A DNA stretch of 64,000 bases from Streptomyces changanensis (GTDB lineage Bacteria > Actinomycetota > Actinomycetes > Streptomycetales > Streptomycetaceae). Made by a program: the position numbers and the translations under genes. Positions 19,966 through 56,343 of the stretch are shown here, in pieces (within the stretch, counting starts at the first letter, position 1; the number at the start of each line of letters is the position of its first letter). The notes beneath the pieces were generated by a model, which saw nothing but the letters and a program-made list of their open reading frames with translations, did no database searches and was not told where the DNA came from. The DNA is taken from assembly GCF_024600715.1 (NCBI RefSeq), contig NZ_CP102332.1, positions 806,001 to 870,000 on the forward strand, given 5' to 3'.

Positions 19966-20811
19966 TCAGCCGATGCCGAAGGCTCCGCCCGGCGGCTCCG
20001 GCGACGCCACCGCGTCCGCGTCGCCCACCACCCGCGCGTCCCCCACCAGCCGGGCCAGCGCCTCGCCGTGCTCCACCCGCGCCGGGAAGGCGTCGGCGGC
20101 CGCCCGGCGGGTCAGCCGGGCCGTGTCGAGCGGCGCGTGCGAGGCCACCAGGACCGCGTTGCCGAACCGCCGCCCGCGCAGCACGGCCGGCTCGGCGACG
20201 AGCGCGAGCTCGCCGAAGAGGGCCGCGAACGTGGCGAGCTGGGAGCGCAGGAAGGCGAACGGCGCCCCGTCGGCGAGGTTCGCGACGTAGCAGCCGCCCG
20301 GCCGCAGCACCCGCTCGACCTCCCGCGCGTACTCGACGGAGGTCAGGTGCGCGGGGACGCGCGAGCCACCGAACACGTCGCCGACGACGATGTCCGCCGA
20401 GTCCGCGGGCGCCGCCGCGAGCCACTCCCGCGCGTCCGCTCCGTGCACGGTGATGCCGGCGCCCTCCGGGACGGGCAGGTGCTCCTCCACCAGCGCCAGC
20501 AGCCCCCGGTCCGCCTCGACGACGTCCTGCCGCGAGCCGGGCCGCGTCACCGCGACGTACCGGGGCAGGGTGAGGGCGCCTCCCCCCAGGTGCACGACGT
20601 CGAGGGGGGCGCCCTCGTGGGCCGCGGCGTCCACGACGTGGGCGAGCCGGCGAGCGTACTCGAACTCCAGATGCGTGGGGTCGTCGAGGTCGACGTACGA
20701 CTGGGGCGCGCCGTCGACGGTCAGCAGCCACGCCCGCTCCCGGTCGATGTCCGGCATCAGCTTGGCGGTGCCGCCGTCGACGGCGCGCAGGACGGGGAGG
20801 GGCTCGGTCAC
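19966..20811 (-). CDS. Spermidine synthase-like (SAM-binding Rossmann) protein
   Basis: 281 codons. VDGAPQSYVDLDDPTHLEFE is the spermidine-synthase-like entry; VVHLGGGALTLPRY is the nucleotide loop and GDVFGGSRVP replaces the catalytic D-A-F motif. Actinomycete homologues without the N-terminal membrane part are common; whether it makes polyamines is unproven. GTG at 20811 has GGGAGA eight bases upstream. It starts 28 bases after the EF-Tu stop, so the two genes may be co-transcribed. Confidence 0.85.
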   Translation of the reverse strand: MTEPLPVLRAVDGGTAKLMPDIDRERAWLLTVDGAPQSYVDLDDPTHLEFEYARRLAHVVDAAAHEGAPLDVVHLGGGALTLPRYVAVTRPGSRQDVVEADRGLLALVEEHLPVPEGAGITVHGADAREWLAAAPADSADIVVGDVFGGSRVPAHLTSVEYAREVERVLRPGGCYVANLADGAPFAFLRSQLATFAALFGELALVAEPAVLRGRRFGNAVLVASHAPLDTARLTRRAAADAFPARVEHGEALARLVGDARVVGDADAVASPEPPGGAFGIG

Positions 20812-20839: not shown

Positions 20840-22009
20840 CTACAGCAGTTCGCTCACGGTGCCCGCGCCGACCGTGCGGCCGCCCTCGCGGACGGCGAAG
20901 CCGAGCCCCGGCTCCAGCGGGACGTCCCGCCCGAGCTCGACGGTCATGGTGACCGTCTCGCCGGGGCGGGCGACGCCCGTACCGCCCAGGTCGACGTCGC
21001 CGACCACGTCGGCGGTGCGGATGTAGAACTGCGGCCGGTACCCGGTCGTGACGGGGGTGGTGCGGCCGCCCTCGCGGGCCGACAGGACGTACACCCGCGC
21101 GGTGAACCGCCGCCGCGGCACGACGCTGCCGGGCCGGGCCACGACGTGCCCGCGGCGGACGGCGTCACGCGGCACGCCGCGCAGGAGCAGCGCGACGTTG
21201 TCGCCCGCCTCCGCCCGGTCCATCGGCTTGCCGAAGGTCTCCACGCCGGTGACGACGGTCTCGGTGTCCGCGCCGAGCACCTCGACCCGGTCGCCGACGC
21301 GCACGGTGCCGCGCTCGACGGCGCCGGTGACGACCGTGCCCCGCCCGGTGATGGTGAGGACGTTCTCGATCGGCATGAGGAACGGCGCGTCCACGTACCG
21401 CTCGGGCGTCGGCACGTACGTGTCGACGGCGTCGAGGAGCGCCTCGATCGAGGCCGTCCACCGCGGGTCGCCCTGCAGGGCGCCGAGCCCGGAGACCCGG
21501 ACGACGGGGACGGAGTCGCCGCCGTACCCGTGGGCGGTGAGCAGTTCGCGCACCTCCAGCTCGACGAGGTCGGTGAGCTCGTCGTCGCCGGCGTCGGCCT
21601 TGTTGAGGGCGACGACGATGTGGTCGACGCCGACCTGGCGAGCGAGCAGGACGTGCTCGGCGGTCTGCGGCATGACGCCGTCGACCGCGGAGACCACGAG
21701 GACGGCACCGTCGAGTTGGGCCGCGCCGGTCACCATGTTCTTGACGTAGTCGGCGTGGCCGGGCATGTCGACGTGCGCGTAGTGGCGGGTGTCGGTCTCG
21801 TACTCGACGTGCGCCAGGTTGATGGTGATGCCGCGTCGGGCCTCCTCCGGCGCGCGGTCGATCCGGTCGAACGGGACGAAGGCGCCGGCCCCGCGCTCGC
21901 TGAGGACCTTGGTGATGGCGGCCGTGAGGGTGGTCTTCCCGTGGTCGACGTGGCCCATGGTGCCGATGTTGAGGTGCGGCTTGGTGCGCACGTACGCCGT
22001 CTTGGACAT
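20840..22009 (-). CDS. tuf3: Divergent elongation factor Tu paralogue
   Basis: 389 codons, slightly shorter than the usual ~397. It carries aminoacyl-tRNA to the ribosome. G1 GHVDHGKT (19-26), switch I RRGITIN (58-64), NKAD (136-139) and intact domains 2 and 3 are visible. Departures from main EF-Tu: DMPGH (81-85) instead of DCPGH and SGL (173-175) instead of SAL in G5. There are no rps/fus genes beside it, so this is the stand-alone second EF-Tu known in Streptomyces; in S. coelicolor tuf3 is reported as non-essential and positively stringent-controlled. It has a structured leader with an upstream ORF. Confidence 0.93.
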
Positions 22010-22046
22010 GACGGGGTGGTTCCTCTCCGGAACTCGAAGCGTGGTG

Positions 22047-22107
22047 GGACCCCTCGGCCTGACCGACCCTCCCCCTGCGGGGTCCGCCGGACGATCCGGG
22101 GAGGGTC
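22047..22107 (-). promoter_or_regulatory. Candidate attenuator: two mutually exclusive hairpins in the EF-Tu leader
   Basis: In minus-strand order: arm A 22107-22098 (GACCCTCCCC), arm B 22085-22079 (GGACCCC), arm A' 22074-22065 (GGGGAGGGTC), arm B' 22053-22047 (GGGGTCC). A pairs perfectly with A' (10 bp) and B with B' (7 bp), but the pairs interleave, so as simple hairpins they exclude each other (or form a pseudoknot). Arm A begins in the stop codon of the upstream ORF. The region is 38-98 bases before the EF-Tu start. Seen directly; function inferred. Confidence 0.55.
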
Positions 22108-22195
22108 AGCTTCGGGCGCCGTCCAGGACGATGGCGGCAGCCTTCGGCGCGTCCGCGACTGCGGACGGCGCTGCGAGGAAGGCGTACCGGAACAT
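22106..22195 (-). CDS. Candidate leader peptide (29 aa) upstream of EF-Tu
   Basis: ATG at 22195, stop TGA at 22106-22108. The peptide runs MFRYAFLAAPSAVADAPK, then AAAIVLDGARS. It lies 96 bases before the EF-Tu start and is the only start-stop frame of this kind in the leader. An AGGA lies about 10 bases upstream, a weak ribosome site. A GTCCGC-GACT-GCGGAC hairpin sits inside it (22151-22166). Codon third positions are mostly G/C, consistent with but not proof of translation. Its stop runs straight into hairpin arm A, the geometry of ribosome-mediated attenuation. Confidence 0.45.
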   Translation of the reverse strand: MFRYAFLAAPSAVADAPKAAAIVLDGARS

Positions 22196-22322
22196 GGCGA
22201 CGATCCTGCCCCGGCCGGACCGCCCGCGTCGACGGGTTTTCGGGTGGGGTGCCCCCGGTTCCCGCCGCGGGTGCGGTTCTCGGTCACGGCGATCACGGGG
22301 GGCCGTCGGTTACGCTCCCCGG

Positions 22323-56007: not shown

Positions 56008-56222
56008 CCTCCCCCTCTGTCATCTCAACCTGAGAGTTTCGCCGTGCGCGCACCCCGACGGGAGGCGGCACGGCTTTCACCGTCGGTGAGAGCGGGTGCC
56101 GTCCGACGCCCGCCCTGCTTTCCAGAGTGACCTCGTCCGCGCGGTACAGGGGCCTGAGAGATTCCGGGGAGGATTTGCTCCTTCGGCGCCTCCGGAAGGT
56201 TTCTCCGGAGGACTCTCCCGCG
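56008..56222 (-). promoter_or_regulatory. Tandem glycine riboswitch upstream of gcvP
   Basis: On the minus strand two aptamers run in order. Aptamer 1 starts GGGAGAGTCC (~56220) and contains GCGCCGAAGGAGCAAATC, CCCCGGAATCTCTCAGGC and CACTCTGGAAAGC. Aptamer 2 contains CTCACCGACGGTGAAAGC and CGAAACTCTCAGGTTGAGA, closing with GACAGAGGGGG. These are the conserved gcvT-type (RF00504) signatures. It ends ~63 bases before the gcvP start. Glycine binding normally turns gcv expression on. Confidence 0.93.
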
Positions 56223-56343
56223 CGGGGTCAGCGGCCAATGCCAGCCTACCAGCGACGTTCCGGGGCGATCCCTCGAGTGGCCGAGGTCACGGTTGTGCCC
56301 TTTCGTAGTGTTCACGGCCCCGTTGTGACCGGCTGGAGGAACC

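Follow-up and report, generated by a model that had tools for sequence, protein, structure and literature searches.

The tuf3 gene of Streptomyces changanensis is preceded by a conserved leader that consists of a short upstream ORF (uORF) followed by two interleaved, covarying helices. Comparison of leaders makes it nearly certain that this leader is real, and the two helices probably fold into a pseudoknot of the H type, its first strand starting within the stop codon of the uORF. The window, by which we mean the whole stretch of 64,000 nucleotides that was analysed, carries tuf3 on its minus strand, and the features of the locus are collected in Table 1. Read along that strand the order is GAAAAC, TCGACG, an 18-nt spacer, CAGGAT, 8 nt, the ATG of the uORF, the two helices, the ribosome-binding site (RBS) and tuf3.

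Table 1. Features of the tuf3 locus and its leader, in window coordinates
Feature	Position	Strand	Basis
WblC/WhiB7-like motif GAAAAC (22241-22236), 3 nt, -35 TCGACG (22232-22227)	22227..22241	-	compared with the PMC7157823 consensus
-10 CAGGAT, 18 nt after the -35 and 8 nt ahead of the uORF ATG	22203..22208	-	sequence reading
uORF, 29 codons, MFRYAFLAAPSAVADAPKAAAIVLDGARS, ATG at 22195, stop TGA 22108-22106 followed by C	22106..22195	-	comparative
Hairpin H0 within the uORF, codons 3 to about 21	22135..22189	-	minimum-energy fold
Stem 1, 5' strand GACCCTCCCC, begins inside the uORF stop codon	22098..22107	-	pairing in 187 leaders
Loop 1, often a mini-hairpin GGA-NNN-TCC	22086..22097	-	12-13 nt in 175 of 187 leaders
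Stem 2, 5' strand GGACCCC	22079..22085	-	fixed-spacing pairing
Stem 1, 3' strand GGGGAGGGTC	22065..22074	-	perfect 10-bp match to GACCCTCCCC
Stem 2, 3' strand GGGGTCC	22047..22053	-	pairs with GGACCCC
GCTTCG, possible base-stem partner of CGAAGC (22114-22109)	22035..22040	-	weak
tuf3 ribosome-binding site GGAGAGGA	22021..22028	-	by eye
tuf3 (EF-Tu3, 389 aa)	20840..22009	-	Pfam and TIGR00485 matches, identity comparison

The tuf3 product has the three EF-Tu domains (Pfam) and matches the EF-Tu model TIGR00485 above its cut-off. The 6.9-Mb genome has another EF-Tu, with which the tuf3 product shares 62% identity; EF-Tu3 is thus a paralogue distinct from the main EF-Tu, which agrees with the divergent tuf gene proposed in an earlier reading of this DNA from its letters alone (the sequence-only reading). 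An actEF-Tu/EF-Tu3 subfamily has been described in actinomycetes (PMC4342817), and reports describe EF-Tu3 as made under stress and as resistant to EF-Tu inhibitors (as cited in PMC12309360 and PMC4342817; the original papers are of 1995 and 2007). Beside the gene, a divergent VTT-domain gene (PF09335; 22323-23039, plus strand) has its intergenic region in common with the tuf3 promoter, and 28 nt downstream of tuf3 lies a spermidine-synthase-like gene (19966-20811, minus strand) whose product scores over the cut-off of NF037959 (fused MFS/spermidine synthase) with the spermidine-synthase half only. A product that ends in SPEPPxGAF is also found behind the decayed tuf3 of another Streptomyces genome (L239, below), and therefore tuf3 and the spermidine-synthase-like gene may form an operon. 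Elsewhere in the window there is a glycine riboswitch (RF00504, 68.2 bits; 56132-56230, minus strand).

WblC-activated promoters are described as GAAAWY, 3 nt, a -35 of TKGMNN, 16-19 bp and a -10 of TANNNT, with most start sites 7-8 bp downstream of the -10, and tuf3 of S. coelicolor (SCO1321) is given there as a WblC-activated target (PMC7157823). The window has this layout with one mismatch in each hexamer, TCGACG being one base off the -35 consensus and CAGGAT departing from the -10 consensus at its first base. Binding and activation of tuf3 by WblC are thus published for S. coelicolor, and the motif in the window resembles a WblC site. This fits the connection that the sequence-only reading had made with antibiotic stress on ribosomes. 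When the 187 leaders described below were compared, a strict GAAAWY was found 44-46 nt upstream of the uORF ATG in 119; its absence at that place in 68 counts against the model of ribosome gating that we propose, as do the single mismatches in the two hexamers of the window. The position of the -10 and the published start distance of 7-8 bp together predict a transcription start on the A of the uORF ATG or on the base that precedes it, and this base is C in 187 of 187 leaders. The uORF is therefore predicted to be leaderless, and leaderless transcripts are reported to make up 21% of the primary start sites of S. coelicolor (PMC4895711).

Matches to tuf3 were found in 238 of 295 genomes of the genus (E up to 1e-180), 156 of 197 of the order (E up to 1e-175) and 34 of 296 of the class (E up to 1e-165), the three draws of genomes overlapping. 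From part of the matched loci 187 non-redundant tuf3 leaders were taken, which come from Streptomyces and, in 13 cases, from six other genera; among these 13, L142 belongs to the same family and the rest to three other families (L140, L141 and L143-L145; L207-L210; L211-L213). Leaders L216-L219, from three more genera and one more family, stand outside the count of 187. In a MAFFT alignment of 46 sequences (A1) strand 5 was misplaced because loop 3 varies, and therefore pairs were counted by script from the positions of the segments. A model (R1) built from A1 contains only stem 1 and the mini-hairpin.

All 187 leaders have the uORF open, with ATG as the start in 186 and GTG in one; its length ranges from 25 to 64 codons, with 31 different values. 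A conserved short upstream ORF is a feature that the tuf3 leader has in common with the wblC attenuator discussed below. The 2,269 codons that make up the variable middle of the uORFs have no in-frame stop, while the other two frames contain 38 and 1, and Ala accounts for 40% of these codons in frame versus 4% in the +2 frame. Both ends of the peptide are conserved, the start as MFR[YH]AF... and the terminus as [DG]GARS and variants of it. In the class with 33 codons (87 distinct of 99) the last five codons are nearly invariant even at third positions, which shows that the end of the uORF is constrained as RNA too. The stop is TGAC in 187 of 187 leaders, and UGAC is a poor termination signal. 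In L219, one of the leaders outside the count, CGA stands at the usual stop position and the ORF, as judged by eye, ends at a TGA just past strand 1. No TTA codon occurs in any uORF of the 187 leaders. The possibility that ribosomes read through the uORF stop into tuf3 in a programmed way was considered and rejected: the two are in frame in the window, yet all three relative frames occur across the 187 leaders (48, 85 and 54). As to H0, a hairpin of similar shape was obtained in most of 25 folded leaders and its paired bases co-vary between lineages. As an extra-stable structure it was discarded, as its stability exceeds that of synonymous recodings only mildly (mean z -1.15; 3 of 24 below -2), and for this reason we give it moderate weight.

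The two helices are conserved as well. With G-U pairs allowed, the best partner of the first stem 1 strand makes 10 of 10 pairs in 181 and 9 of 10 in 6 of the 187 leaders, whereas mononucleotide-shuffled windows reached 10 of 10 in 20 of 3,740, and the first pair, made by the G of the stop codon, is present in 183 of 187. Stem 2 at fixed spacing makes 7 of 7 pairs in 184 of 187 leaders versus 3.9% of shuffled windows. In the 13 leaders from other genera stem 2 is complete in all 13 despite changed bases, and when the stem 2 strand of these genera was set against Streptomyces windows, full pairing was found in 14 of 169. The lineages have their own versions of stem 2, namely GGACCTC/GAGGTCC (L142), GAGTCCC/GGGACTC (L140), GGGAACC/GGTTCTC (L144), GAGCCCC/GGGGCTC (L207) and TGACCCG/CGGGTCA (L213). 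Stem 1 is rebuilt as GACCGTTCCC/GGGGGCGGTC in L140 and as GACCTTCCCC/GGGGAAGGTC in L142, and L216-L219 have yet other sequences in both helices, which there comprise 10-12 bp (stem 1) and 7-8 bp (stem 2). When the partner strand was slid by 1-3 bases, pairing fell from 99.7% to 49-78% in stem 1 and from 99.8% to 18-71% in stem 2. In stem 1, 3 of the 10 pairs have a double change, compared with 0-2 after sliding; in stem 2 it is 6 of the 7, compared with 2-4, some of the stem 2 variation being register ambiguity. Within Streptomyces, compensation in stem 1 is sparse, which counts against the gating model.

These results show that what the sequence-only reading had noticed in the leader is real, and on stronger grounds than it had given. 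The positions that it gave on the minus strand for the uORF and for the 10-bp and 7-bp helices were all right, including the TGA of the 29-codon ORF as part of a perfect 10-bp stem arm, in which 22107-22098 pair with 22074-22065. The leader ORF that it had described is conserved, in 31 lengths, and the tie of the structure to the stop codon is borne out by a TGAC that lies within the first strand of stem 1 in every one of the 187 leaders. The check that it had suggested, on whether the ORF and the paired positions are conserved, was carried out and both are, so that the reading was not refuted; the compensatory changes that it had suggested looking for in both helices exist in separate lineages (L140 and L142 for stem 1, 13 of 13 other-genus leaders for stem 2).

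The evidence for the leader is comparative and not one of folding energy. The folding energy of the window leader alone is ordinary (z -1.55, with 12 of 200 shuffles as good), which is what would be expected if there were no regulatory leader and the pattern were due to chance or were a by-product of high G+C and coding constraint. All of the comparative results speak against this explanation, and the conservation across 187 leaders contradicts it to the point that we give it hardly any credence. At the level of sequence, comparison demonstrates the conserved ORF, both stems with their compensation, the stop codon in stem 1, the near-fixed loops and the promoter motif.

How the two helices relate to each other is a separate question. 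They consist of four disjoint strands that have no nucleotide in common, and therefore they are mutually exclusive only as nested hairpins and could form jointly as a pseudoknot. Loop 2 is 3-4 nt long in 185 of 187 leaders and loop 3 is 11-12 nt long in 180 of 187, whereas the tail past stem 2 can be as short as 26 or as long as 106 nt; an exception that counts against the pseudoknot is L217, where loop 3 has 28 nt. The sequence of loop 3 drifts, at 1.12 bits per site as compared to 0.04 in the adjoining stem 1 strand (161 leaders). The disjoint strands, the near-fixed loop lengths and the drifting sequence of loop 3 fit an H-type pseudoknot better than exclusive hairpins, and the fold of the leader is probably of this type. 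In nested ensembles calculated for 47 of the 187 leaders the mean probability of stem 1 was 0.86 and that of stem 2 was 0.03, so that the nested ensemble is accounted for by stem 1 alone, which counts against the pseudoknot. When the bases that a ribosome at the stop codon would cover were masked in the same 47 leaders, the probability of stem 1 fell from 0.86 to 0.00 and that of stem 2 had a mean of only 0.16. Stem 2 is thus strongly conserved and yet rarely formed alone, and this is best explained if it folds on top of stem 1, the two stems then forming simultaneously.

The sequence-only reading had taken the two helices for the mutually exclusive hairpins of an attenuator, and this part of it was not upheld: the strands are disjoint, the loops are near-fixed, stem 2 hardly forms alone when strand 1 is masked and there is no general terminator. 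Its statement that the interleaved helices cannot both form as simple hairpins is correct, but they could form together in a pseudoknot, in which no base would be used twice. As a whole it is partly supported, with the ORF, the structure tied to the stop, the divergent tuf and the antibiotic link on one side and the exclusive hairpins on the other. Classical ribosome-mediated attenuation, in which a stall upstream would let stem 1 act as the antiterminator and a ribosome at the stop would mask strand 1 and so leave stem 2 to act as the terminator, is in our judgement unlikely. This logic is known from wblC and from drug-resistance leaders (PMC11550727, PMC12421871), and S. lividans leader peptides often have no U-tract (PMC8079986). 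Competition between hairpins, however, normally requires a common strand, which is lacking here, unlike in the wblC attenuator; attenuation has no need of fixed loop lengths; and the low probability of stem 2 in the masked leaders goes against it. Nor was a Rho-independent terminator with a U-tract, as in the wblC attenuator, found for the group, since at least four T within 8 nt behind stem 2 occur in only 25 of 187 leaders and behind stem 1 in none. A classical terminator is therefore unsupported for the group, and an intrinsic terminator at either stem was rejected, although a minority of leaders could still have one. In favour of attenuation, bases 4-7 past stem 2 are rich in C/T and poor in G (G 5-8% versus 34% in the whole region, with T at 53% at base 4; 165 of 187 leaders), and this stretch leaves room for unusual terminators and for Rho.

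Translational control was also considered. CGAAGC at the end of the uORF could pair with GCTTCG beside the tuf3 RBS as a base stem round the pseudoknot, and a ribosome at the uORF end would then open this stem and free the translation of tuf3. Both motifs are present in 118 of 187 leaders, and the LEU element of leuA is described with such a stem (PMC1262725). In the 14 leaders where CGAAGC has changed, on the other hand, the stem is uncompensated (3 of them keep GCTTCG, mispaired), and none of the 13 other-genus leaders has it as the best helix. We regard this control as improbable, and a base stem to the RBS would be at best an addition made in Streptomyces. To a similarly small degree we allow that a protein, EF-Tu3 or some other factor, binds the pseudoknot, the main role of the uORF then being to control whether ribosomes occupy the pseudoknot. 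That the fold is compact and is conserved across families is consistent with this, and for the LEU element a protein was the option preferred in PMC1262725; the loop sequences, however, are variable, and the tie of the stop codon to stem 1 in 187 of 187 leaders points to the ribosome.

In the genome that the window comes from, R1 matched only the tuf3 leader, the next hit having an E value of 4.4, and among the 296 class genomes it matched 34. It recovered 31 of the 34 class genomes that have tuf3, missing G560, G565 and G679, and its extra matches were in G088, G489 and G707; those in G489 and G707, with no tuf gene behind them, were taken for chance. In G088, a Streptomyces genome, no tuf3 match reached the cut-off, and at L239 (G088:C1:495200-497500) there is a decayed tuf3-like frame and a decayed leader in which the pseudoknot strands are kept and the uORF start is unrecognisable. 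That the decay of tuf3 is accompanied by decay of the leader is counted in favour of the gating model. An exact pattern scan of named genomes gave at least 120 stretches, and among the 80 loci listed from it 75 have EF-Tu coding directly behind, two look like chance, one is at a contig end and two have a uORF and no EF-Tu motif within the 420 nt examined. L294, in an actinomycete MAG, and L246, on a Sporosarcina contig, are exact pattern matches without EF-Tu behind that look like chance. Rfam gave no above-threshold match at the tuf3 leader; the best match, msiK, was rejected as its identity at 16.4 bits against a threshold of 33.

The known systems nearest in kind to the tuf3 leader are the LEU element of leuA and the wblC uORF attenuator. 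The LEU element of Actinobacteria has a short ORF and a conserved pseudoknot upstream of the gene (Seliverstov et al. 2005, PMC1262725), and the tuf3 leader, of the same phylum, is alike in having a short uORF and then a conserved, probable pseudoknot ahead of the regulated gene; at tuf3 this layout is seen as two interleaved covarying helices, which probably fold as a pseudoknot. The LEU element differs by a run of Leu codons, of which there is none in the listed tuf3 uORFs, and by its base stem to the Shine-Dalgarno box; the tuf3 leader belongs to a translation-factor gene, has its stop codon in stem 1 and has no general base stem. R1 does not detect the leuA leader. Upstream of leuA in the same genome (L242) there is a short ORF, MRFGLLLLSRRGEGL, that is almost the LeuL1 peptide of S. 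lividans (PMC8079986). Mutations in the leucine codons of the LEU element were without effect on regulation according to work cited in PMC1262725, because of which its authors doubted classical attenuation. This result means that a layout of uORF and pseudoknot need not be gated by the ribosome, and it counts against our model. The wblC/whiB7 uORF attenuator (Lee et al. 2022), as described in PMC11550727 and PMC12421871, is likewise an actinomycete uORF ahead of a gene for resistance to translation inhibitors, and both genes belong to one regulon, since WblC autoregulates and tuf3 is a WblC target. The wblC leader has a Rho-independent terminator and an antiterminator, whereas in the tuf3 leader no general terminator was seen and the helices have no common strand. 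S. lividans leader peptides resemble the tuf3 uORF, with its predicted leaderless start, in being leaderless short ORFs before hairpins, several without a clear terminator, and alaL is Ala-rich like the tuf3 uORF; they are listed for amino acid and aminoacyl-tRNA genes, unlike tuf3 (PMC8079986). In the literature searched, which was mostly outside subscription journals, neither a uORF nor a pseudoknot was found to be described for tuf3. In the text of PMC7157823 the word 'leader' occurs 0 times and 'uORF' once, about wblC, and 'tuf' occurs 0 times in the texts of PMC12421871, PMC8079986 and PMC11550727.

A model in which the pseudoknot is gated by the ribosome is the account that we lean towards. 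A promoter activated by WblC/WhiB7 would start the tuf3 transcript on or beside the ATG of a probably leaderless uORF, and just past this uORF the transcript would form an H-type pseudoknot whose first strand starts within the stop codon. Given where the stop codon lies, a ribosome that has finished the uORF and waits at UGAC would mask the whole of the first stem 1 strand and keep the pseudoknot open. If translation is blocked or slow, by a drug on the ribosome or on EF-Tu or by amino acid shortage, no ribosome would arrive in time and the pseudoknot would fold co-transcriptionally, the folded state being the ON state of tuf3. A cell whose ordinary EF-Tu cycle is failing would in this way make the resistant EF-Tu3. 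Since the length of the uORF varies freely, dependence on a single stall codon is unlikely, and what the leader would ask is whether the ribosome reaches the end. The output may be transcription read-through, Rho termination, RNA stability or translation. Another case in which a ribosome at a leader stop codon decides on pseudoknot formation is repY-repZ of IncI-type plasmids; there translation opens the way to the pseudoknot, whereas in our model for tuf3 translation blocks it, and the genes are unrelated. We place the ON state where the ribosome fails to arrive because of the analogy with the wblC leader, in which blocked translation of the uORF is reported to lead to read-through (PMC11550727). 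This sign would also fit the product, as EF-Tu3 is reportedly made under stress and resistant to inhibitors. A further point against the model comes from PMC12309360, where GE2270A resistance did not rise with two of the three constructs made to over-express tuf3.

More tentatively, and with less confidence than in the gating itself, the leader may be seen as an elongation sensor. The time that a ribosome takes to cross a leaderless, structured and Ala-rich ORF of no fixed length would decide on the folding of an H-type pseudoknot that is rooted in the stop codon, and an inhibitor-resistant EF-Tu would be turned on when the EF-Tu cycle fails. This would be a new class of actinobacterial leader. 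The tuf3 gene is reportedly, to go by the title of a 1995 paper, under positive stringent control, and such control would then be due at least partly to the leader and WblC. If this is true, tuf3, the gene of an EF-Tu known since the 1990s to be made only under stress, would have a concrete switch that is testable base by base, and its positive stringent control would become a question separable into the parts of the leader, WblC and ppGpp. Beneath WblC there would be a second layer, one that reads translation, for one resistance factor, and it would suggest that actinobacteria read the progress of ribosomes with pseudoknots rooted in stop codons and not only with terminator hairpins.
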